A DNA stretch of 64,000 nucleotides from Rhodoplanes serenus (GTDB lineage Bacteria; Pseudomonadota; Alphaproteobacteria; Rhizobiales; Xanthobacteraceae). A program made the translations under genes and the position numbers. The notes beneath the pieces were generated by a model. The model made no database searches and was not told the origin of the DNA. It worked only from the letters and a program-made list of their open reading frames with translations. This document shows, one piece after another, positions 43,649 to 62,950 of the stretch. Position 1 is the stretch's first letter; each line of letters begins with the position of its first letter. The stretch is from NCBI GenBank assembly GCA_945893145.1, contig CAMDDZ010000014.1, positions 1-64,000 of the forward strand, in the 5' to 3' direction.

Positions 43649-45013
43649 ATGCGACTTTTGAGCTATTCTAATCTCATGCAAAACGCCGGTTTCGAACAAG
43701 CCCTCACTTCGCGTGTCGACGAGATGGTCGACGCTTGCACCAAATGCGGGGCCTGCTTCGAGGTCTGCCCGATTGCCGCGCCGGCCGGGCTCGGCAGCGC
43801 CGATTCGAAGGCGGTGGTGTCCGGCGTGCTCGACATCCTGCGGTTTGGCAAAGGCCCGGAGGAATCGCAGAAGTGGGCCAAGGCCTGCATGGCGAGCGGC
43901 GAGTGCATCAAGGCTTGCAACTACGGCGTCAACCCGCGCTTTCTTTTGACGATGGCGCGACTTGCCATGATGCGGAACGAGAAGGAGCCGGTGGATCGCC
44001 GCAAGCAGGGCGTCACCGTGTTCCGCAAGATCGGCGAGGACGTCAGCGTTTTGTCGCGGCTGCAGCTCTCCGAGGAGTCGCTGATTCGGCTCGGCCAGAA
44101 GCCGTCGAAGGAGCCGTCGCGCACTGAGCTGCCCGATGTGGTGTTCTACACCGGCTGCAACGTGCTGAAGACGCCGCACATCGCGCTGCTATGCCTCGAT
44201 ATCATGGACATGATCGGCACCGATTATCGGGTGATGGGCGGGCCGACCCATTGCTGCGGCACCGCGCAGCTTCGCGCCGGCGACATCGACACGCTCGGCC
44301 GCTTCGCCAACAACACCATCCAGAAGCTTACGCAATCGAAGACCAAGCAGGTGCTGGCGTGGTGCCCGAGCTGCGTCATGCAGTTCGGCGAGACCGTGCT
44401 GCCGACCGTGCAACGCGCGACCGGCGAGATGCCATTCGACATGACGCCGTTCATGCCCTTCCTGCATGCCAAGCTCGACGCGCTGCGGCCGTTGCTGAAG
44501 AACCGCGTTGAGATGACGGTGGCGCTGCATCGGCATCCGGGCATCGCTGGCGTCATGGAAGCGGCCGAAGAGCTGTTGCGCGCCGTGCCTGGTATCACAA
44601 TCGTCAAGCTCGACGTGCCGGCGGTCGGCCTGCAGAGCGTCAATCTCGCGACCTTGCCGAAGTTCAAAGCCGAGCTTCAGCTCAAGGAACTGGAAGCTGC
44701 GCGTAAGGCCGGCATCGATGCGCTGGTCGCAGTTTATCATTCCGATCACCGCGAGCTGTGCGCGCACGAGCGCGATTGGCCGTTCAAGATCATGAACATT
44801 CTTGAGGTCATCGGCGAAAGCATGGGCTTGCGTCAGGACGACCACTACAAGAGCCTGAAGATCAAGCAGGACGTCGATGCGATCATCACCGACGCGTCCG
44901 ACCTGATGAAGCGTCACGGTGTCGATCTCGACACCGCCCGCAAGGTGATCGTGAACGGCATGCTGGGCGACCAGCCGTTGCCGTTGCAGGGCAAGCAGGC
45001 GGCTGCAGGTTAA
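43649..45013 (+). CDS. HdrD/GlpC-like Fe-S protein with CCG domains
   Basis: The protein has 454 residues (or 445 from ATG 43676). A first cluster site is CTKCGACFEVCP (C30-C40, canonical 4Fe-4S). The second is degenerate, CMASGECIKACNYGVNP, lacking one of the usual cysteines. Two CCG domains follow: FYTGCNVLKTPHIALLCLDIMDMIGTDYRVMGGPTHCCG, then AWCPSCVMQFGE and a later His-rich region where the second CCG would normally lie (ALHRHPGIAGVMEAAEELLRAVPG). It resembles heterodisulfide-reductase or glycolate/lactate-oxidase Fe-S subunits. It may take electrons from one of the local flavin dehydrogenases. Its end overlaps the convergent Ldh gene by 4 bp. Confidence 0.82.
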   Translation: MRLLSYSNLMQNAGFEQALTSRVDEMVDACTKCGACFEVCPIAAPAGLGSADSKAVVSGVLDILRFGKGPEESQKWAKACMASGECIKACNYGVNPRFLLTMARLAMMRNEKEPVDRRKQGVTVFRKIGEDVSVLSRLQLSEESLIRLGQKPSKEPSRTELPDVVFYTGCNVLKTPHIALLCLDIMDMIGTDYRVMGGPTHCCGTAQLRAGDIDTLGRFANNTIQKLTQSKTKQVLAWCPSCVMQFGETVLPTVQRATGEMPFDMTPFMPFLHAKLDALRPLLKNRVEMTVALHRHPGIAGVMEAAEELLRAVPGITIVKLDVPAVGLQSVNLATLPKFKAELQLKELEAARKAGIDALVAVYHSDHRELCAHERDWPFKIMNILEVIGESMGLRQDDHYKSLKIKQDVDAIITDASDLMKRHGVDLDTARKVIVNGMLGDQPLPLQGKQAAAG

Positions 45014-45999
45014 GCGGCAGCGATCTCCTTCATCAGCGTTTCGCTGATTGAAATGCCTTCGGCCTGGGCCTTTTCCCGCGTCTTAAGCCGCCGCGCGCCC
45101 GGCAGCCTTGCGCCGGCCTGGGCTTCGATCGAAGCAGCCAGCACGCCAAAGCGAGCGACGGCATCGCCACCAAACGCCGCCGCATCGAATGCCACAATCA
45201 ACTGGCCGGTGCCGGGCGGCGGGCCTTTGGCATCAAGATAGGACGATGCCTCCGCGGCAAAGTTCGAGCCGGTGAGGCCTGCGGCCAGCAGTTCGACCAT
45301 TAGCGCCAGCGCGACGCCCTTGGCGTCGCCCGCAGGGAACATCGTGCCGCCGAGCGCGGCGTCTGGATCGGTGGTCGGCTGGCCATTCGCGTCGAGCGCC
45401 CAGCCTTCGGGGATTTTCTCGCCGCGCTGCTTCGCCGCCATGATGTTGCCGCGCGCGACCTTCGATAGCGACAGGTCGATGACAAGCGGCGCGCGGCCCG
45501 GCAGCGGGCAGGCGAACGCGACCGGGTTGGTGCCGAACACCGGCTTCGAGCCGCCCCACGGCGCCATCGCGGATGGGGTGTTCACGAACATGATCGCGAC
45601 CAAGCCTGCTTGCGCGAGCCGTTCCACCGGCTGGCCGGCCGCGCCGCAATGGTGCGAGCGCCGGATCGCCCCCGTAGCGACACCCTGGTCGCGCGCCAGC
45701 ATGGGCAATGCGGCTTCCGCAGCCTCAAGGGCCGGAAACGCAAAGCCGTGCGCTGCATCGATGGCGATCAGGCCCGGCTTCGGCCGGGTCAGCACCGGCT
45801 TGGCAATCCCATCGACCTTGCCGATTTTCGCTTGGGCCGCGTACATCGGCACCCGCGAGAGCCCGTGACCTTTCAGTCCGTCGGCTTCGGCGGCGACCAG
45901 CGCGCGGGCAACGCTCTGTGCGTTCTCCGCAGCGGTGCGGCAGCGGGTCAGTGTGGTGACGACAAGATCGTGCGCTTGGGCCAGCGTCAGATTCGGCAT
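45010..45999 (-). CDS. Ldh-family 2-hydroxyacid dehydrogenase (candidate (R)-sulfolactate dehydrogenase)
   Basis: The 329-residue protein is of the malate/L-lactate dehydrogenase type (Ldh_2): ARALVAAEADGLKGHGLSRVPMYA, GVATGAIRRSHHCGAAGQPVERLA (His-containing loop), MAPWGGSKPVFGTNPVAFACPLPG, LSLSKVARGNIMAAKQRGE. The family includes ComC, (R)-3-sulfolactate dehydrogenase, as well as ureidoglycolate and delta1-piperideine reductases. It starts 3 bp after the end of the YeiH-type gene and belongs to the suyA-suyB-suyZ operon, which favours the sulfolactate role. Sequence alone cannot prove that. Confidence 0.85.
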   Translation of the reverse strand: MPNLTLAQAHDLVVTTLTRCRTAAENAQSVARALVAAEADGLKGHGLSRVPMYAAQAKIGKVDGIAKPVLTRPKPGLIAIDAAHGFAFPALEAAEAALPMLARDQGVATGAIRRSHHCGAAGQPVERLAQAGLVAIMFVNTPSAMAPWGGSKPVFGTNPVAFACPLPGRAPLVIDLSLSKVARGNIMAAKQRGEKIPEGWALDANGQPTTDPDAALGGTMFPAGDAKGVALALMVELLAAGLTGSNFAAEASSYLDAKGPPPGTGQLIVAFDAAAFGGDAVARFGVLAASIEAQAGARLPGARRLKTREKAQAEGISISETLMKEIAAA

Positions 46000-49716: not shown

Positions 49717-50688
49717 TTATTTGCGCCGCACTCCGGCCATGTCGACCATCTGCGCGTAGACCGGCATGTCCTTGCGTATGCTCGCGATGGCTTCATCCTG
49801 CGTGGTGCCAACGGAATCGATGCCGAGATTCGCGAAAATCTTGATGATGTCCGGGTCGCGGGCGATGACCCGCAAGGCTGCGGCGAGACGGTCGATGACC
49901 TCCTTCGGCACACCGCTGCCCACCGCATACCCGTTCCACGCGATGTATTCGAAGCCCGGAATGGTTTCCGCCACCGTCGGGACATTGGGAAGTTGCGGCA
50001 TGCGCTGCGGCGTCGACACCGCCAGCGCCTTCACGGTGCCGGCTCGCGTGGGCTCGATCAGGTCGGACGAATTGCCGAAGTGCATCTGCACCGACTTCGA
50101 CAGCACGGCTGTCAGCGCCGCCTGGCCGCCGCCAAACGGAACATGCACCATGTCGAGCTTTTCCTTGCCCGCCAGATAGGCCGTCGACAGGTGGTTGTTG
50201 GTGGCCGGACCGCCGCTCGAATAGGTGATCTTGCCGGGGTTGGCCCGCGCGTAATCGATGAACTCGCGCAGCGTGGAGTAGGGCGCATCCTTGTCGACCA
50301 CCATCACCATGCCGTTGGTGCCGGTGATGCTGAGGGGCACGAGGTCCTTCAAAGGTTCGTAGTTCACCTTCTGCGCCAGCGGCAGGACGGTGAAGATGGT
50401 GCTGCCGAGAAACAGCAGCGTGTAGCCGTCACGCGGCGCGTTCAGCGCATAATCGACGCCGATCGCGCCGCCGGCGCCAAGCTTGTTCTCGATGACAAAG
50501 GTCTGCCCAAGCATCTTGCTGAGCCGATCGGCGGTCATGCGTGCCATCGTGTCCGTGACGCCTCCGACGCCGTAGGGCACCACCACCTTGACGGTGCGGC
50601 TCGGCCATTGCTGAGCAGCGGAAGGCTGCGCCGATAGCGCAAACGCCACGCATGCGCTCATCGCTGCGAGCCATTGTTTGAATTTCAT
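49717..50688 (-). CDS. Bug-family solute receptor (TTT transport system), 3
   Basis: ATG 50688 (MKFKQWLAAMSACVAFALSAQPSAAQQWPSRTVKVVVPYGVGGVTDTMARMTADRLSKMLGQTFVIENKLGAGGAIGVDYALNAPRDGYTLLF) gives 323 residues with a Sec signal. It is a canonical Bug member with PNVPTVAETIPGFEYIAWNGYAVGSGVPKEVIDRL at the C-terminus. The track ORF extends into the RidA-like gene's frame and is wrong. It is 38 bp downstream of the RidA-like gene on the same strand, so they probably share a transcript. No membrane subunits adjoin. Confidence 0.92.
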   Translation of the reverse strand: MKFKQWLAAMSACVAFALSAQPSAAQQWPSRTVKVVVPYGVGGVTDTMARMTADRLSKMLGQTFVIENKLGAGGAIGVDYALNAPRDGYTLLFLGSTIFTVLPLAQKVNYEPLKDLVPLSITGTNGMVMVVDKDAPYSTLREFIDYARANPGKITYSSGGPATNNHLSTAYLAGKEKLDMVHVPFGGGQAALTAVLSKSVQMHFGNSSDLIEPTRAGTVKALAVSTPQRMPQLPNVPTVAETIPGFEYIAWNGYAVGSGVPKEVIDRLAAALRVIARDPDIIKIFANLGIDSVGTTQDEAIASIRKDMPVYAQMVDMAGVRRK

Positions 50689-50726
50689 TGTCGTCTCCAT
50701 CGTTTTGATCGCGGCGCGGCGGATGC

Positions 50727-52037
50727 TCAAGGAACGTAAACCCACAAATCGACCTGCAGCTGTGCGTCCGGCACCGGAAGCCACGGCACCTCGATGGGCG
50801 AGAGCGGCAGCGGCATGCCGCCGGTCGCCTCCGACCAGACTTCGAGTGTCGCCGGAAGGTCTGCGAGATCGGCGTGATACTGCTGAATGCGGACCGCGTT
50901 TTTGAGGCTGGTGCCGGCGGCCCGGCAGATCGTTTCCGCTTGCGCCAGGATTTCTTGCAACTCGGCTTTCACCGGCATCGCATAGAACGGCTGCGCCGGA
51001 TCGGCTTTGGCCTCCGGTACCAGCGCGCCATCGCGCACCGCCATCAGGCCGGAGATGAGCAGCAGGTCGCCGGCGCGGATCGCGGTAGAGCCGCCTTGAA
51101 ACAGCGGCGGGATCGGCGCGACCACCTGCTTTTTGGTTTTGCCGTCCTTGGCGAGCGCGATGGTGTTGATCTCGATGCGCAGCTCGGCCTGGATGAATCC
51201 GGGTGTCGCGGTTGCGATGATCGTCGTCGCGGGCTCCACCGGAAAGTGCTGGGCCCAGACCTGGCGGAAGCCCGGAATGTCCTCCTGGTCGCGCAGATAA
51301 ACTTGCGCCTTCACCACCGTATCCAAACCGGCGTTGACGGCTTCCAGCGTCGGCTTGAGCTTTCTTTTGATGATGAAATCGGTCTCGAGCATGATCGGCG
51401 TGCCCTTCCAAAGGCCGTGGGCACGCCGCGCTTCGGGATCGACCGGCAGATCTTTTTCGTCGCGCGCCTCGGCGGTCTGGCCCGGCACGAAGCGGAAATC
51501 GCCGGCGCTCAGCGCCGGGCTGTATCCGGAGCTGGCGTGGATCTTATAAGCGCCAGCTTTCGTCTCGTGTTGGACGTCGAAGCCCTTGCCCGGAATGGCC
51601 GCCATCACCTGCACTTCCATGGTCTGTCCGGTGCGGGCAAAGCGGCGATGAATATTGGACGTCGAAGGCGGGATTTTGCCTTTGAAGAATTCGCGCCGGG
51701 TCTGGTGGTAGCCGTCCACGACATTCGGCGAGGTGTAATATTGATCGATTCGGACCACATGGCTCGGGCTCGATCCGCCTGCGGCGAGCACCTCGGCGAC
51801 GTTCTGAAAGATGCGCCGTGCTTCGCGGTGCGACTTCGACGGACCGTCGAATGGATGTCCGAACCGCAGCACATCCGGCGCCATGGCGTGAACGTAGTCC
51901 GTGCCGCATTGCCCAGTTGCGAACAGCCATCGTCCGGCCCGAACGCCGCGCGCCCAGCGGTGTGGGGTGCCCGGAACCGCGGCCGGCAGGATGGCCTCGA
52001 TCGCGGCTGATGCGGGTACTTTTTTCTTGGAGCTCAT
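50727..52037 (-). CDS. Triple RidA/YjgF-domain protein
   Basis: The 436-residue protein contains three consecutive RidA-like units. They are about residues 25-150 (RAGRWLFATGQCGTDY...EARRIFQNVAEVLAAGGSSPSHVVRIDQYYTSPN), 165-305 (FRFVPGQTAEARDE...LKPTLEAVNAGLDTVVKAQVYLRDQEDIPGFRQVWAQHFPVEPATTIIATATPGFIQAELRIEI) and 310-436 (IRAGDLLLISGLMAVRDG...ETICRAAGTSLKNAVRIQQYHADLADLPATLEVW). RidA proteins normally form trimers of about 130-residue chains and hydrolyse 2-aminoacrylate-type enamines or imines. Here one chain supplies three lobes, so an internal pseudo-trimer is likely (inference). Confidence 0.85.
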   Translation of the reverse strand: MSSKKKVPASAAIEAILPAAVPGTPHRWARGVRAGRWLFATGQCGTDYVHAMAPDVLRFGHPFDGPSKSHREARRIFQNVAEVLAAGGSSPSHVVRIDQYYTSPNVVDGYHQTRREFFKGKIPPSTSNIHRRFARTGQTMEVQVMAAIPGKGFDVQHETKAGAYKIHASSGYSPALSAGDFRFVPGQTAEARDEKDLPVDPEARRAHGLWKGTPIMLETDFIIKRKLKPTLEAVNAGLDTVVKAQVYLRDQEDIPGFRQVWAQHFPVEPATTIIATATPGFIQAELRIEINTIALAKDGKTKKQVVAPIPPLFQGGSTAIRAGDLLLISGLMAVRDGALVPEAKADPAQPFYAMPVKAELQEILAQAETICRAAGTSLKNAVRIQQYHADLADLPATLEVWSEATGGMPLPLSPIEVPWLPVPDAQLQVDLWVYVP

Positions 52038-52108: not shown

Positions 52109-52960
52109 CTAATCGAGATTGAAGCCCTTCTTCCTGACGAACGCCCCGAAGTCCGGCCGCTGCGGCACGCCGTATTGCCGAGCCTTGTCCTCCGACCAGC
52201 CGTAGAACGCGACGTCGCCCCAGCGCGCCGGATCGCGCGGCTTGTAGGGATGGATGGCGGCGCGGCGCTTGTCATAGGCGTCGATGCGCGCCGCGAGATC
52301 GCCTTCGTCATAACGGCCTTGATGCAGCGTACTTTCGAGGCCGAGCCGTGCGCTGGCGTGGCCCGCGTCCGAGGGCCAGCCCACGCATAGGCCGGCAACC
52401 GGGATCACCCGCTGCGGCAGCTTCAGCATGTCGCTGACCTTCTGCGAGTGGTCGCGGATCACGCTGATCGGGCAGGTGCCGAGGCCGACCGCATCGGCGG
52501 CGGCGATGAACGTGGCCAGCACGATCCCGGCATCGACCGCGGCGTTGAAGAACTGGTCGAGATGATCGTTGGGGAACGGCTTGCCGCGCATCCGCGCGAT
52601 CTCCGGCAGGCGGCGGCCGTTGGCGAGGAACACCAGGAAGGCCGGCGCCGAGCGGATGAACGGCTGATCCGGGATCAGATCGGCAATGACGTTCTGCTCG
52701 GGTTTTTCCAGAATCACGATGTCGGCTTGCTGCAAGTCGCTCTTGCTGGGCGCGGAGAGTGCACAGGCGCACAACAGGCGCAGCAGCGCCGGATCGACCG
52801 TGCGATCGGCGTAGCGCCGCTGCACCCGCCGTCCCGCCATGCGGGCGAGCGCGTCGAGGCCCGGGAGGTTCTCGTCGACGGGCAACGTCTCGCCGAAGCG
52901 CCGGCTGAGCGCATCGCGGAGGGCTTTGGCATGTTCAGGGCTTGGCTCGGGGCTTGGCAT
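52109..52960 (-). CDS. Nitroreductase-family protein
   Basis: The 283-residue flavoprotein has the FMN-binding start VQRRYADRTVDPALLRLLCACALSAPSKSDLQQADIVIL and the later DAGIVLATFIAAADAVGLGTCPISVIRDHSQKVSDMLKLPQRVIPVAGLCVGWP. It has an extra C-terminal region ending FVRKKGFNLD typical of NfsA/FRP-like NADPH-dependent members. It is divergent from the complex-II-like iron-sulfur gene. Physiological substrate unknown. Confidence 0.92.
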   Translation of the reverse strand: MPSPEPSPEHAKALRDALSRRFGETLPVDENLPGLDALARMAGRRVQRRYADRTVDPALLRLLCACALSAPSKSDLQQADIVILEKPEQNVIADLIPDQPFIRSAPAFLVFLANGRRLPEIARMRGKPFPNDHLDQFFNAAVDAGIVLATFIAAADAVGLGTCPISVIRDHSQKVSDMLKLPQRVIPVAGLCVGWPSDAGHASARLGLESTLHQGRYDEGDLAARIDAYDKRRAAIHPYKPRDPARWGDVAFYGWSEDKARQYGVPQRPDFGAFVRKKGFNLD

Positions 52961-53003
52961 GGGCGGGCGTTCCGGTATTCATGGGGCGGGGAAGCATTCT
53001 GTC

Positions 53004-53732
53004 ATGGCCGAAGGTTCCGAAGCGATGCTCTCGGTGGAGGTCTGGCGCGGCACGGAAGCGGGCGCGTTCCAGACCTTTCGCGTGCCGCAGCGCGCGCACC
53101 AGACCATCCTCGACGTGGTGACCGAGATCCAGCGCGATCTCGACGCGACGTTGTCCTACCGCTTCGCCTGCCGGGTCGGCATGTGCGGCTCCTGCGCCAT
53201 GGTGGTGAACGGCCGCCCGCGCTGGACCTGCCGCACGCGCGTCAGTGAGGTGGTGAGCCCCGACGGCGCGTTGCGGCTCGAGCCGCTGCGCAACTTCACG
53301 GTGGTGAAGGACTTGGCCGTCGAGATGACCACGTTCTTCGACAAATGGCGCGACGCCAAAGGCTCCTTCGACCCGGGTGACGCCAGGGCGGACTTCCACG
53401 TCGTGCCGCCCGCTAGCACGGAGCGGCAGGCGGCCGACGCCGGCATCGAATGCATCGGCTGCGGCGTCTGCTATTCGGCTTGCGACGTGGTGGCTTGGGA
53501 CAAGGATTATCTCGGCCCCGCCGCGCTCAACCGAGCCTGGACCTTGGTCAATGACGTGCGCGACGGCGGCAACGACGCGCGGATCGCCGCGGTGTCGGGC
53601 AGCGCCGGCTGCCACGCCTGTCACGCTCACATGAACTGCACGGAATTCTGCCCGCGCGGCATCGCACCGACCTATTCGATTGCAGGGCTGAAGCGCGCCA
53701 TGATGACGCGTGCGCTGCGGAGACGGCCGTGA
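53004..53732 (+). CDS. Succinate dehydrogenase/fumarate reductase-type iron-sulfur subunit
   Basis: ATG 53004 (MAEGSEAMLSVEVWRG) gives 242 residues. The [2Fe-2S] ligands are in CRVGMCGSCAMVVNGRPRWTC, the [4Fe-4S] in CIGCGVCYSAC and the [3Fe-4S]-type in CHAHMNCTEFCPRGIAPT, the standard SdhB order. It is the first gene of a coupled trio with two short membrane subunits. A matching flavoprotein is found 7 kb away at 61226. Its role is likely a second complex-II-like oxidoreductase, with the normal sdhCDAB expected elsewhere in the genome. Confidence 0.92.
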   Translation: MAEGSEAMLSVEVWRGTEAGAFQTFRVPQRAHQTILDVVTEIQRDLDATLSYRFACRVGMCGSCAMVVNGRPRWTCRTRVSEVVSPDGALRLEPLRNFTVVKDLAVEMTTFFDKWRDAKGSFDPGDARADFHVVPPASTERQAADAGIECIGCGVCYSACDVVAWDKDYLGPAALNRAWTLVNDVRDGGNDARIAAVSGSAGCHACHAHMNCTEFCPRGIAPTYSIAGLKRAMMTRALRRRP

Positions 53733-54058
53733 CCGCCTGGATGTTCCTGTTGCAGCGCGCGTCGGCCGCGGTGCTGGCGTTCGCGGTGTCGGTGCATCTC
53801 GCCACCATCCTCTACGCGGTGCGCGGCGGGCTGACGGCGGGCGAAGTGCTGGCACGCACGCGCGGCAACGGCTGGTTCCTCGCTTTCTATCTGCTGTTCG
53901 TCGTCGCCGTGACGCTGCACGCGCCGATCGGGCTGCGCAACATCCTGCGCGAATGGACGCCCTGGCGCGGCCGCTCGCTCGACGTGGCGCTGGCGCTGTT
54001 CGCGCTCGTGCTGCTGGGGTTCGGCACGCGTGCGGCGTTCGCCGTGTACCTGACATGA
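53729..54058 (+). CDS. Complex-II-like membrane anchor, SdhC/FrdC-type
   Basis: The 109-residue protein has three hydrophobic helices: ASAAVLAFAVSVHLATILYAV, WFLAFYLLFVVAVTLHAPIGLRNIL and VALALFALVLLGFGTRAAFAV. Histidines in SVHLATI and TLHAPIGLRN are placed to bind heme b and contact quinone, as in SdhC. The start GTG 53729 overlaps the Fe-S gene stop by 4 bp. It is coupled downstream to the second anchor by ATGA. Confidence 0.82.
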   Translation: MTAWMFLLQRASAAVLAFAVSVHLATILYAVRGGLTAGEVLARTRGNGWFLAFYLLFVVAVTLHAPIGLRNILREWTPWRGRSLDVALALFALVLLGFGTRAAFAVYLT

Positions 54059-54396
54059 TCCGCGCCTCGCACAAGCAGCCTGGCTTTCTCGCGGCGCTCC
54101 TGCACCGACTCGCCGGCATCGCTCTCGCGGTGTTCCTGCCTATTCATTTTCTGGCGCTGGCGACCGCACTCAATGGCGCCGATGCGCTCGATTCTTTCCT
54201 TAAGGCCACGGCGCATCCGCTGCTGAAATTCTCCGAAGGCGCCATCGTGGTCGCGCTGGCGCTCCACATGGCGCTCGGGCTGCGCGTGCTGGCGGTTGAA
54301 TTTCTGCCGCTGCGCGAGCGCACCCGCGTCGTGGTCTCGCTCTGCCTGGCGGCGGGCTTTGCGGTCGGATTACTTTTTCTGCTCAACGCCGGCTGA
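54055..54396 (+). CDS. Complex-II-like membrane anchor, SdhD/FrdD-type
   Basis: The 113-residue protein has three helices: FLAALLHRLAGIALAVFLPIHFLALATAL with two histidines (LLHRLAG and PIHF), AIVVALALHMALGLRVLAVEFL with another, and VVVSLCLAAGFAVGLLFLLNAG. The pattern HRLxG...H is typical of SdhC/D heme-ligand helices. It starts with ATG overlapping the preceding stop (ATGA). It ends the trio just before the convergent aconitase X genes. Confidence 0.8.
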   Translation: MIRASHKQPGFLAALLHRLAGIALAVFLPIHFLALATALNGADALDSFLKATAHPLLKFSEGAIVVALALHMALGLRVLAVEFLPLRERTRVVVSLCLAAGFAVGLLFLLNAG

Positions 54397-54807
54397 TCAG
54401 AGTACCCGGATGAACGGCCGCTCGGCGGAGGGGTCTATCTCGACCTGCGCGCCGTTTGGGATCGCTTGCGTGATGTCACAATCGAAGCCTGAGATCATGG
54501 TGAAGTCGGCGAGCGCTGCGCCTTGCGCCATGATCGGGTTGACGGCGTTGAGCACCAGCGCCGCCGGCATCACGCCGCGCGACTGCATCTCATAGAGCAT
54601 CCAGGCGGTGGCGACGCCGCCCTTCGCCGCATCCAGCACCAGCACGCGGCCGACGTAGCTCTCGCCCGCGAGCTTGTGCTCCGGCCGCGAGAACGTGCCC
54701 TTGATGCGATCGAGGTCGTAGCGTGCCGAGAAGCCATCCTTGGCGACCAGCGCTTGGCCTTGCAGCTTGCGGCCCATGCCGGCCGTGGCGTGGAAAATCT
54801 TGCTCAT
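54397..54807 (-). CDS. Aconitase X small (swivel) subunit
   Basis: The 136-residue swivel domain (DUF126 type): MSKIFHATAGMGRKLQGQALVAKDGFSARYDLDRIKGTFSRPEHKLAGESYVGRVLVLDAAKGGVATAWMLYEMQSRGVMPAALVLNAVNPIMAQGAALADFTMISGFD. Its start overlaps the large-subunit stop by 4 bp (ATGA), giving a two-subunit AcnX. These enzymes dehydrate cis-3-hydroxy-L-proline or related compounds in bacteria. Convergent to the complex-II-like genes. Confidence 0.87.
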   Translation of the reverse strand: MSKIFHATAGMGRKLQGQALVAKDGFSARYDLDRIKGTFSRPEHKLAGESYVGRVLVLDAAKGGVATAWMLYEMQSRGVMPAALVLNAVNPIMAQGAALADFTMISGFDCDITQAIPNGAQVEIDPSAERPFIRVL

Positions 54808-56048
54808 GCGAGCTTCCCGCCAGCGCAGGCCGCCGTGATGCAGGCCTCCATCGACAGCAGCGCCGGCTTGTAGCCGTAGCCGCCGAGGATGTTGGTGAGC
54901 TTCGCCGAGTTGGTGGCGAGCCGCTTCCAGCCGTTCGCCTCCGCCATCTCGCGCGCGTAGCTCTGGTAGAAGCACATGCCGGACAGCACGGTGCCGCCGG
55001 CGCCCTCGATCCGTTTGGTGATGCCCATACGATCGGCGTCGGGCTTCACCTGCGGGCTGGTGATCACCAACGTCGGGATTGTGGCGCGCCGGCCATCGAG
55101 CAAATCGGCCACCTGCCGCATCTCGATCAGGCTCAATTGCGGGGCCGAGAACACCACCAGGTCGACCGTATCGATCTGCCGTACATAGCTCGCCTGGAAG
55201 GCGCGAACATCGGCTTCGCCGACATCGTGCGTGCGCAAGTCCGCGCCGGTATCGACCACGTCGCCAAGCCGCTGCGCCTCCGGCGTGATGCCGGCCATAT
55301 GAAACATTGCGAGCGAGCCATAGCTCGCCGCGGCCGCGCCGAAGTGTTTCATCTCGTCGGGGCCTGGCACCCGATCGAGCCCGACCACCACCGGCACCTG
55401 CCAGTAATCGCCCGCCAGGCGCCCGACAATGCCGCCGAGCGCGCCCCAGTCGTTGAGTTCGCGCGGTGTCCAGCTCACCTGCACGACCAGCGTCGCGCGC
55501 CGGTGCCGATCGAGATGATAGCCGTAGCGCGGCGTGCGGCCGGTGAGGCCCGCGCTCAGCGCCGAGGGGCCGCCCTCGAAGTTCGAACGCGCCCCGCACA
55601 CGCTGTTGCCGTAGATCGTGACGCCGGTGTCGCCGAAGGCGCAGTGCTCGCGGAGCACCGGCGCCATGATGGTTTGGTAGTTGATGCAGGTGTCGGTCAT
55701 CAGCACGCCGAGCGCCTCGAATGCCGCGATGGCGCGGCGCTCCAGATCGAGCATCCAGGGCTGGTGCTTGAGCTTGTGGGCCGCGGCGAAATCGGTGCCG
55801 CGCGGATCGGTGATGGTGGGGATGCGCACGCGGCGCTGCTTTTCGGGTAGCTTCGCCCAGCGTTCGAGCCATTCGACACCGGCGGCGCCGAGCGACTCGG
55901 TGTCGGCCATGATGTGGGCCTGGGTGACCGGGACGAAATCCTCCGCGCCGAGATAGCTGCCGACCTTGATCTGGTGCTCGATCGCCCATTGCGCGACGGG
56001 GCCGAAATCGCCCGCCCGCATGGCTTGTTCTTCGTCGTTCAGGCGCAT
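54804..56048 (-). CDS. Aconitase X catalytic (large) subunit
   Basis: ATG 56048 (MRLNDEEQAMRAGDFGPVAQWAIEHQIKVGSYLGAEDFVPVTQAHIMADTESLGAAGVEWLE) gives 414 residues; the track ORF's 70-codon extension is not credible. Fe-S/active-site cysteines are seen in LMTDTCINYQT, IYGNSVCGARSNFEGGPSAL and the C-terminal LSGMCFYQSYAREM. The pattern matches DUF521/AcnX. Members act as hydroxyproline dehydratases or mevalonate-5-phosphate dehydratase in archaea. Bacterial context here (Bug receptor, fumarase) suggests hydroxy-acid catabolism rather than isoprenoid synthesis. Confidence 0.87.
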   Translation of the reverse strand: MRLNDEEQAMRAGDFGPVAQWAIEHQIKVGSYLGAEDFVPVTQAHIMADTESLGAAGVEWLERWAKLPEKQRRVRIPTITDPRGTDFAAAHKLKHQPWMLDLERRAIAAFEALGVLMTDTCINYQTIMAPVLREHCAFGDTGVTIYGNSVCGARSNFEGGPSALSAGLTGRTPRYGYHLDRHRRATLVVQVSWTPRELNDWGALGGIVGRLAGDYWQVPVVVGLDRVPGPDEMKHFGAAAASYGSLAMFHMAGITPEAQRLGDVVDTGADLRTHDVGEADVRAFQASYVRQIDTVDLVVFSAPQLSLIEMRQVADLLDGRRATIPTLVITSPQVKPDADRMGITKRIEGAGGTVLSGMCFYQSYAREMAEANGWKRLATNSAKLTNILGGYGYKPALLSMEACITAACAGGKLA

Positions 56049-56206
56049 CGCGGTTTTCTGCTCTGGCGCAGCAGGAATTTGAAACGGCCATTCTTGGATA
56101 GCACCTATGCGGCCTGTGACAAGACCCGGCGGCAATGCGTCACTTGCTTGCGCGATGTCCGAACGCCATGATCGCACCAAACAACGATCGTCTAGGGAGA
56201 AGCACA

Positions 56207-57184: not shown

Positions 57185-57201
57185 GTGCTAATATCGTGGC
57201 C

Positions 57202-58074
57202 ATGCAGCTCGATATTAAAGAAGTCGAAGAGGTCGCGAAGACGCTCTACATCCGCGCGCTGAAGCTCCTGCCGCCGGACATCAAGCGGGGCTTCGAGCGG
57301 CTGCAGGCGCAGGAAACCGACGCAACCGGCCGCTCTGTGCTCGGCACCATGGTGGAGAACATCGCGGTCGCCGAGCGCACCAAGAACCTGCTGTGCCAGG
57401 ACACCGGCATCCCGATCTACAACGTCGTCATCGGCAAGAACGTCGAGTTCGACGGCGTTGCGATGAAGGAGGCGATCCGTCGCGGCTGTGCGCGCGCCAC
57501 CACCGAGCATCCGTTGCGCTCGTCGGTGGTGCATCCGGTGACGCGCAAGAACGAGCAGACCTCGTGCGGCATCGGCGTGCCGCTGATCAACGTCGATTTC
57601 GACGGCCGCGACGAGACCGTGGAGATCGAGATGATCCCGAAGGGATCGGGCTCGGAGAATGGCTCATTCCTGCAAATGCTGATTCCAGCGGACGGCGTCA
57701 AAGCCGTGAAGCGCTTCGTCATCGACAAGGTGATCGACTGTGGCGGCCGCGTCTGCCCGCCGACCATCGTCGGCGTCGGCGTTGGCGGCACGTCGGACCT
57801 GTGCATGCATATCGCCAAGGTGGCGGCGACCCGTCCGCTCGGCACCGCTTGCAGCGATCCGGAGGGCGCCAAGCTCGAAGCGGAGCTGTCGGAAGCCGTG
57901 AACCAACTTGGCATCGGCCCGCAAGGGCTGGGCGGCCGTTCAACCTCGTTCCGCGTGCATGTCGAAGTGGCGGCGACCCACATCACGATGAATCCGGTCG
58001 CGGTCAACATTCAGTGCCACTCGGCGCGGCGCGCCAACGCCGTCATCACGCCGGGCGGCATCGATTTCAAGTGA
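57202..58074 (+). CDS. Class I fumarase/tartrate dehydratase alpha subunit
   Basis: ATG 57202 (MQLDIKEVEEVAKTLYIRALKLLPPDIKRGFERLQAQET) is preferred over GTG 57196. It has 290 residues. Conserved Fe-S dehydratase motifs are LLCQDTGIPIY, PKGSGSENGSFL, CPPTIVGVGVGGTSDLC and LGIGPQGLGGRSTSF. The two-subunit layout (alpha about 290, beta about 200 residues) is shared by fumarase and L(+)-tartrate dehydratase, which sequence inspection cannot tell apart. The upstream Bug receptor 4 suggests a substrate taken up from outside. Confidence 0.92.
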   Translation: MQLDIKEVEEVAKTLYIRALKLLPPDIKRGFERLQAQETDATGRSVLGTMVENIAVAERTKNLLCQDTGIPIYNVVIGKNVEFDGVAMKEAIRRGCARATTEHPLRSSVVHPVTRKNEQTSCGIGVPLINVDFDGRDETVEIEMIPKGSGSENGSFLQMLIPADGVKAVKRFVIDKVIDCGGRVCPPTIVGVGVGGTSDLCMHIAKVAATRPLGTACSDPEGAKLEAELSEAVNQLGIGPQGLGGRSTSFRVHVEVAATHITMNPVAVNIQCHSARRANAVITPGGIDFK

Positions 58075-58078
58075 CGTC

Positions 58079-58690
58079 ATGACCCATCATGTTTTCGAAA
58101 CCCCCGTCACCGAGGCGCAGGTGCGCGCGCTGCGCATCAATGACACGGTGACGCTGGAGAAAACACTGTTCGGCATCCGCGACGGCACGTTGATCGCGAT
58201 GTTCGACCGCGACCGGCGCACCACCATGGATCTTCACGGCCACGCGGTGGTTCACACCGCGCCGAACGTGCGCAAAATACCGGTGACCAACGAGTGTCCA
58301 ACCGGCTACGCGCCGCTCTGCATCGGCACCACCACGTCGCAGCGCATGGAGCGCTTCACGCGGCCGCTGATGGAGCGCGAGGGCGTGCGCGTCATCATCG
58401 GCAAGGGCGGCATGGGTCCTTTGACGCAGGCGGCGTTTCGCGATCTCGGCGGCGCTTATCTCGCGGTGATCGGCGGCGCGGCGGCGCTCGAAACCACTTG
58501 GATCGAGGCGATCGACGAGGTGGACATGGACGATCTCCATCCTGAGAGCCTTTGGCGCTTCCGCATCAAGGGATTCGGCCCGCTGCTGGTGACGATGGAT
58601 TCGCACGGCGGCTCGATCTATGACCGCGTGCAGGACGAGGCCAAGGCGCGGCGCGCGAAGATCTTGGCTGACCTCGGCGCCAGCGAGTAG
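58079..58690 (+). CDS. Class I fumarase/tartrate dehydratase beta subunit
   Basis: The 203-residue protein has VLRINDTVTLEKTLFGIRDGTLIAMFDRD in the family swivel domain, then the motif NECPTGYAPLCIGTTTSQRMERFTRPLMEREGVRVIIGKGGMG, AAFRDLGGAYLAVIGGAAAL and FRIKGFGPLLVTMDSHGGSIYD. It starts 4 bp after the alpha subunit stop, so the two are cotranscribed. It completes the heterodimeric Fe-S hydratase. Confidence 0.92.
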   Translation: MTHHVFETPVTEAQVRALRINDTVTLEKTLFGIRDGTLIAMFDRDRRTTMDLHGHAVVHTAPNVRKIPVTNECPTGYAPLCIGTTTSQRMERFTRPLMEREGVRVIIGKGGMGPLTQAAFRDLGGAYLAVIGGAAALETTWIEAIDEVDMDDLHPESLWRFRIKGFGPLLVTMDSHGGSIYDRVQDEAKARRAKILADLGASE

Positions 58691-61109: not shown

Positions 61110-61225
61110 CCTGTCGTGTTTAAGGACAAGGAAAAAGGCCAACACGAGGCACAAGACGAGACAGTGTGAAAACTTGGTTACGCGCGCTTGTCTCTTGTGC
61201 ATCGCCGCCGCGATAATGGGTGTTC

Positions 61226-62950
61226 ATGCAAACTCTCGACACCGACATCCTGATTCTCGGCGCCGGCGGTGCGGGCCTGTTCGCAGCGCTCCATGCAAAA
61301 AAGGCACGCCCGGAACTCGACGTCACGATTGCGGTTAAGGGTCTGCTCGGCAAATGTGGCTGCACCCGCATGGTGCAGGGCGGCTACAACGTAGCGCTGG
61401 CGCCAGATGATTCCGTCGAGCGCCATTTCATGGACACGATCGAGGGCGGCGGCTGGCTCAACGATCAGGAGCTGGCGTGGCTTTTGGTGAGCACCGCTCC
61501 CAAGCGCATCCGCGAACTCGAAAACGAGATCGGTTGCTTCTTCGACCGGAACCCTGATGGAACCGTGCACCAGAAAGCGTTCGCGGGTCAGACCTTCGAC
61601 CGCACCGTGCACAAGGGCGATCTCACCGGCATCGAGATCATCAACCGGCTTGCGGAACAAATCTGGCGGCGCGACGTCCGGCGGCTGGAAGATCACCGCG
61701 CGCTCGACCTGATCCCGGCAGCCGACGGTTCCGGCCTCGCCGGCGTCTACATGCTCGACATGCGCACCGGCGAGCCGCTGATGGTTCGGGCGCGCGCGAC
61801 GCTGCTCGGCACCGGCGGCGGGCCGACCATGTACCTCTATCACACGCCCTCCGGCGACAAGTCGTGCGACGGCATGGCGATGGCGTTGCGCGCAGGTCTC
61901 CCGCTGCGCGACATGGAGATGGTGCAATTTCATCCGACCGGATTGCTGGCGGGCCCCGGCACGCGCATGACCGGCACCGTGCTGGAAGAAGGCCTGCGCG
62001 GCTCGGGCGGCTATCTGCTCGACGAAAGCGGTGCGCGCTTCATGTTCGACTACGACAAGCGCGGCGAGCGCGCCACGCGCGACATCGTGTGCCGCGGCAT
62101 TGCGGATCGCATCCGCAAAGGCTTCGTGTCACCGAACGGCGGCGTCTATATCGCGATGGGCCATCTCGGCGCGGCGAACGTGCGGCGCGAGTTCAAGGGC
62201 ATGGTCGAGCGCTGCGCCGACTGCGGCTTCGATCTCGCGGGCGGCAAGGTCGAGGTGGTCCCGACCGCGCACTACATGATGGGCGGCGTGCAGTTCAAAA
62301 CCGATTGCACCACCGCGATGCCGCGGCTCTATGCGGCGGGCGAGGACACCGGCGGCGTGCACGGCGCGAACCGGCTCGGCGGCAACGGCGTCGCCAACTC
62401 CACAGTGTTCGGCGGCATTGCGGGCGACTGCATCGCGGCGCAGATCAAAACCGCCGGCAAGCTCGCCGATCCCGATCAGGCCGTGATCGAGGTGGCGCAC
62501 GAGCGCGCCTTCGCGCCGCTCGGCAAGCGCCGCGCCGACCTCGAAGGCGTGCGGCGCAGGCTTTACGACATCATGTGGAACGACGTCGGCATCCTGCGCA
62601 CCGCCGAGGGCCTCGCCAAGGCCCGGCACGCGCTGAACAATCTCGCCACCGGACTCTCGGCGATGGGCGTGCCCAATCCGGAGAAGCGATACAACCTGAC
62701 CTGGATGGACCGGCTGAACCTGGAAAACCTCGTGCAGGTCAGCCGCGCGATCTGTGCCGCGGCGCAGGCACGCGCCGACAGCCGCGGCGCGCATTTCCGG
62801 GAAGATTTCCCGGCGGCCTCCGATCTCGACACCTCGCACTACACGGTCGTGCGAGCCAAGGACGAGAGCTTCGCCGTCACCACCGAGCCTGTGGTGTTCA
62901 GCCGCGTGCGGCCGGGCGAATCGCTGCTGACCCCGCAGGCGGCGGAGTGA
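61226..62950 (+). CDS. Succinate dehydrogenase/fumarate reductase-type flavoprotein subunit
   Basis: ATG 61226 (MQTLDTDILILGAGGAGLFAALHAKKA; the track begins at GTG 61220) gives 574 residues. Conserved features: GAGGAGLFAAL for FAD, GTGGGPTMYLYHTPSGDKSCDGMAMALRAGLPLRDMEMVQFHPTG with the HPTG active-site element, LRGSGGYLL, RATRDIV (catalytic Arg) and HGANRLGGNGVANSTVFGG. The segment aligned with the His that carries covalent FAD in SdhA (SHTVSAQGG) reads GCTRMVQGG, so His is replaced by Cys and FAD is probably non-covalent. It may partner the Fe-S/anchor genes at 53-54.4 kb. Confidence 0.92.
   Translation: MQTLDTDILILGAGGAGLFAALHAKKARPELDVTIAVKGLLGKCGCTRMVQGGYNVALAPDDSVERHFMDTIEGGGWLNDQELAWLLVSTAPKRIRELENEIGCFFDRNPDGTVHQKAFAGQTFDRTVHKGDLTGIEIINRLAEQIWRRDVRRLEDHRALDLIPAADGSGLAGVYMLDMRTGEPLMVRARATLLGTGGGPTMYLYHTPSGDKSCDGMAMALRAGLPLRDMEMVQFHPTGLLAGPGTRMTGTVLEEGLRGSGGYLLDESGARFMFDYDKRGERATRDIVCRGIADRIRKGFVSPNGGVYIAMGHLGAANVRREFKGMVERCADCGFDLAGGKVEVVPTAHYMMGGVQFKTDCTTAMPRLYAAGEDTGGVHGANRLGGNGVANSTVFGGIAGDCIAAQIKTAGKLADPDQAVIEVAHERAFAPLGKRRADLEGVRRRLYDIMWNDVGILRTAEGLAKARHALNNLATGLSAMGVPNPEKRYNLTWMDRLNLENLVQVSRAICAAAQARADSRGAHFREDFPAASDLDTSHYTVVRAKDESFAVTTEPVVFSRVRPGESLLTPQAAE

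Follow-up and report, generated by a model that had tools for sequence, protein, structure and literature searches.

The gene P0001 (50727-52037, minus strand) encodes three Rid units in one chain of 436 amino acids, and none of the three carries the arginine that is used to predict imine deaminase activity. All positions refer to the window, that is, the whole stretch of 64,000 nucleotides that was analyzed. Our preferred explanation, to which we give a probability of about 0.5, is an ancient fused cytosolic pseudo-trimer, in which one specialised cleft would act on an imported substrate.

Three Rid units in one chain

The gene was delineated by its open reading frame, three PF01042 stretches and an AlphaFold2 model. 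Positions 50727-52037 form a single ORF with an ATG start on the minus strand, and the plus-strand translation of the same positions holds no start-to-stop gene. Compared with its orthologues, the gene is under purifying selection (dN 0.12-0.17 vs dS 0.76-1.5), and this low dN relative to dS indicates that the three-unit ORF is a real gene. A scan for sigma-70 promoters and terminators gave nothing above chance.

The Rid family PF01042 matched in three stretches, with an E-value of 2.5e-32 and 111.8 bits for the whole protein. Each unit also exceeded the curated cut-off of 27.3 bits on its own, as indicated by the scan of the gene's own genome (40.8, 35.3 and 32.6 bits for units 1, 2 and 3). 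Based on hhalign to RidA and on conservation in the family, unit 1 spans residues 16-150 (51588-51992), unit 2 residues 166-296 (51150-51542), and unit 3 residues 303-436 (50730-51131), all on the minus strand. In profile-profile comparisons (hhalign), the units matched RidA with E-values of 3.7e-17, 1.6e-20, and 6.4e-16, respectively. The Escherichia coli RidA sequence in the comparison profile has Tyr, Asn, Arg, Cys and Glu at positions 17, 88, 105, 107 and 120. An earlier note on this DNA had described three successive RidA-type units in the 436 residues, and both the three PF01042 stretches and the RidA profile match of each unit bear this out. Its further remark, which named the first unit as the most diverged, is only partly right. 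Unit 1 shares 18 and 24% identity with the other two, less than the 26% that units 2 and 3 share with each other. Its Pfam score, on the other hand, is the best of the three, and by profile it is unit 3 which lies furthest from RidA.

The AlphaFold model, calculated from an 82-sequence input, is of high confidence (mean pLDDT 94.3, pTM 0.93) and contains the Rid beta-alpha-beta pattern three times. Single RidA chains were matched by Foldseek with a TMt of about 0.8, one unit per match, and each third of the protein adopts the Rid fold in the prediction. The outcome that the earlier note had named as refuting its reading, a third without this fold, thus did not occur. The pseudo-trimer with non-identical clefts, which had been suggested beforehand, follows from three Rid folds in one chain together with their confident relative placement in the model. 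We thus consider it very likely, as far as a predicted model can tell, that the 436-residue chain is a single-chain pseudo-trimer of Rid units. A sequence search for solved chains with three Rid units found none.

Divergence of the active-site positions

Whether a Rid protein is an imine deaminase is, by accepted practice, predicted from Arg105 of RidA, and an Ala in its place leaves hardly any activity (PMC4433059, PMC5619798). In P0001, hhalign to RidA places Ser125 of unit 1, Thr271 of unit 2, and Leu412 of unit 3 at the Arg105 position. The family alignment A2 comprises 82 different proteins from alpha- and betaproteobacteria. At the same position, its members have in unit 1 Ser (78) or Thr (4), in unit 2 Thr (39), Leu (27), Val (9), Ile (3), Arg (3) or Phe (1), and in unit 3 Phe (59), Leu (18), Thr (3), Cys (1) or Tyr (1). 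The arginine is therefore kept in three of the 82 members, in unit 2 only. These three, which may still be deaminases because of it, are each the second paralogue within an importer operon; a fourth one of this kind, in L112, reads likewise. The earlier note had implied three imine-hydrolysing sites. With no predictive Arg in any unit of P0001, and hardly any in the rest of the family, three such sites are unlikely, and the standard deaminase function has likely been lost in P0001, to judge from its sequence.

Other positions are strongly conserved, although not equally in the three units. The Glu120 position in unit 2 is Glu289, which is invariant (82 of 82), while unit 1 has Glu, Asp, Asn or Ser, and unit 3 mostly Met. 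The Tyr17 position is aromatic in unit 1 (68 of 82) and in unit 2 (82 of 82; Tyr172 in P0001), but not in unit 3, and unit 3 of P0001 has neither the Glu nor the Tyr. The 21 invariant columns of A2 are distributed as ten in unit 1, seven in unit 2, and four in unit 3, those of unit 1 including R96, D98, Y110, R114, T126 and S127. This conservation pattern reads as one of divergent clefts, and not of three equal sites.

If P0001 were a true 3x-RidA, an imine/enamine deaminase whose sites are atypical, it would use Glu289, Tyr172 and the loop backbone, on a larger or non-carboxylate imine from the same pathway. In favour of this, unit 2 has kept the equivalents of Tyr17 and Glu120, and in about 10% of RidA proteins Ser replaces the Arg (PMC4433059). 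Furthermore, in four loci (L107, L109, L112 and L117) two different three-unit genes lie around one NMT1/SsuA-type ABC importer, and the downstream one keeps the Arg, in unit 2 only. The match of P0001 to the RidA-type model TIGR00004 can be read both ways, since it is present, at 62.1 bits, but remains below the cut-off of 106.25. Considering how closely the activity follows Arg105, we find such a deaminase doubtful.

The loss of the catalytic Arg from all units would also suit a binding or regulatory protein, as would the genetic link to substrate-binding importers. The clefts of such a protein would bind, but not convert, the metabolite that is imported or an acid related to it, and thereby control the importer or an enzyme of the pathway. 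This is unlikely, given the strong purifying selection, the invariant polar residues, which include a Glu of the acid/base type, and the fact that the fused Rid-fold proteins retrieved by structure search and from the literature are enzymes. An enzyme with one specialised cleft remains our preferred reading.

The family and its importer neighbourhood

Homologues occur frequently within the genus and sporadically across the bacterial family, and a full-length paralogue with 43% identity is found on another contig of the same genome. A scan of genome contigs retrieved 80 alpha- and betaproteobacterial loci, most of them in metagenome-assembled genomes. In an even sample of the phylum (299 genomes), the three-unit gene occurred in its own genome only, and plasmid searches found no three-unit Rid record. 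In a tree of 87 units, calculated from few columns with a quick method, the complete set of first units formed a clade, and so did that of third units (SH-aLRT 99 for both clades). The second units grouped together, except that, with weak resolution, the triplet of L029 fell among them. The unit tree is consistent with one old family, which arose by a single ancient fusion and then diverged asymmetrically.

The chain of the L029 triplet (L132:9814-11064, minus strand; also in L029), from the same bacterial family, consists of three Rid units which are 77-81% identical to each other and keep the Arg in all three (PPPRTT). The L029 protein reaches 248.8 bits with TIGR00004 (cut-off 106.25), and the gene is the last one in a branched-chain-type ABC importer operon. 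That the units are so alike suggests either a separate triplication of recent date or gene conversion, and the link with an importer recurs here. A second three-unit type, of 461 amino acids, precedes a Bug gene and a gene for a 430-residue type in three loci (L101:4824-6206, L106:2786-4168 and L110:5009-6391), and L030 holds a distant relative of it.

The Bug/TctC periplasmic receptor gene (49717-50700, minus strand; PF03401, E 3e-55) starts 26 bp past the stop of the three-unit gene, and both are probably in the same operon. In six relatives, the Bug orthologue (71-81% identical) lies directly downstream of the orthologous three-unit gene. Counted by direct homology search, a Bug gene is present within 400 bp of 52 of the 86 three-unit genes, in 30 of these cases downstream and on the same strand, as compared with about 0-29% in more distant windows. 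Some of these genomes contain many Bug genes, so that beyond the near orthologues such a neighbour is weak evidence by itself. Other members adjoin NMT1/SsuA-type ABC importers, a single Rid-like protein (PF14588) or an M20 hydrolase (M20 amidohydrolases). The pairing with the Bug receptor had been taken to suggest a catabolic, not a housekeeping, role. Both the Bug counts and the orthologous pair in six relatives uphold the association with importers, and an association with a substrate-binding importer makes the catabolic role probable. Action on an imported compound is plausible. Since all three copies lack the deaminase Arg, P0001 is probably a specialised enzyme for an imported nutrient, and not a housekeeping detoxifier.

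The wider window encodes further metabolic enzymes. An aconitase X is split into two genes, for the large and the swivel part (54397-56135, minus strand), and its nearest NCBIfam model, cis-3-hydroxy-L-proline dehydratase, scores far below the cut-off. An Ldh_2 dehydrogenase is located at 45010-45999. Iron-sulphur and flavoprotein genes, similar to those of succinate dehydrogenase/fumarate reductase, lie apart from each other (52839-54396 and 61220-62950), with a two-gene class I fumarase between them (57196-58690). We did not read the substrate from AcnX, Ldh_2 or the class I fumarase, because these genes are not among the families recurring beside homologues. The upstream nitroreductase was rejected as a linked gene for the same lack of recurrence. 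A minus-strand gene family without Pfam match ("c7"), found beside some members, was judged to be the antisense shadow of a Bug gene and was discarded.

A putative specialised cleft and other concatenated Rid-fold proteins

Our explanation starts with a Rid gene whose triplication and fusion would have been a single, ancient event. The three clefts between the subunits of a homotrimer are forced to stay alike; fusion would have lifted this constraint and allowed the units to diverge. In the lineage of P0001, none of the three clefts would have kept the carboxylate-binding Arg. The polar residues conserved in unit 1 (R96, D98, Q99, Y110, R114, T126 and S127) and Glu289 of unit 2 probably build one specialised cleft, which would be located between units 1 and 2. 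Going by conservation, we infer that one such cleft is more likely than three imine-hydrolysing sites. Glu289 could serve as acid/base, in a chorismatase-like manner, and the enzyme would hydrolyse, lyse or tautomerise an organic acid or an N-compound. This substrate would be bound by the Bug receptor of the same operon and taken up through it. A cytosolic location is suggested by the protein sequence, in which no signal peptide was seen by eye.

The annotation as imine deaminase is widespread among Rid proteins. For this fused family, which lacks the catalytic Arg, has other residues under strong selection and is linked to importers, the annotation is likely wrong. More tentatively, the fusion might have freed one cleft to become a new hydrolase or lyase class, with a site chemistry unrelated to that of RidA deaminases and with substrates imported by Bug or SsuA-type receptors. 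If true, this would be a third enzyme lineage from concatenated Rid subunits, beside chorismatase and cyanuric acid hydrolase. The family also offers a natural series, with three Arg (L029), one (the second genes of L107, L109, L112 and L117) and none (P0001), as a way to study how active sites diverge after the fusion of a homo-oligomer.

RidA, TdcF and UK114 are homotrimers of separate 130-residue subunits, with three equal Arg sites. The 436-residue protein resembles them in the fold and profile of each unit, but joins the units in one fused chain. This architecture is not new, as it was named "3x-RidA" by Niehaus et al. in 2015, with EF_0115 as an example (PMC4433059). In both, a single chain carries three tandem Rid domains and is presumed to be a covalent trimer. 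Compared by description, 3x-RidA is a subset of the Arg-bearing RidA subfamily, whereas P0001 has no Arg and scores below the RidA-type cut-off.

Older concatenations of the same fold are cyanuric acid hydrolase and, probably, chorismatase. For cyanuric acid hydrolase, it has been published that a new enzyme arose when three Rid-like units were concatenated (PMC3758960, PMC4051656). Like P0001, the cyanuric acid hydrolases/barbiturases (AtzD, "Toblerone" fold) have three Rid-like units in one chain, with asymmetric catalytic roles. The shared idea of concatenation, as well as the M20 amidohydrolases near some members, could hint at a ring-opening amidase of this type, whose active site would lie along the inner axis. 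Nevertheless, no Pfam family besides PF01042 matched P0001 at an E-value up to 1, including that of cyanuric acid hydrolase/barbiturase. Furthermore, the axial Ser-Lys pairs of these enzymes have no counterpart in P0001, as no Lys is invariant among the 82 proteins of A2. A ring-opening amidase is therefore very improbable.

Chorismatases themselves are single-chain relatives of the Rid trimer. They gave the best Foldseek matches in the PDB (FkbO/Hyg5/XanB2; 5ag3, 5a3k, 4bps), ahead of single-unit RidA chains, over about 386 columns with a TM of 0.47 by query and 0.59 by target, and 14-15% identity. The chorismatase model TIGR04444 scored 11.5 bits with P0001 (E 0.13), below its cut-off of 325. 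The middle and C-terminal parts of a proteobacterial chorismatase-like profile align weakly to units 1 and 2 (P 5e-4, HHalign probability 33%). This alignment puts a PAAT-type motif over PPST, and the Glu of VEI(D/E)G (Hyg5 Glu334), whose catalytic role has been described (PMC7170507), over Glu289. It is suggestive, and could reflect the common fold only. Chorismatases differ from P0001 in their length of about 330 residues, without three clear PF01042 units. They resemble it in that a single chain has a Rid-type fold, and in that the aligned part lacks an Arg at the Arg105 position. By the weak alignment, the Glu which is catalytic in chorismatases would fall at the Glu120 position.
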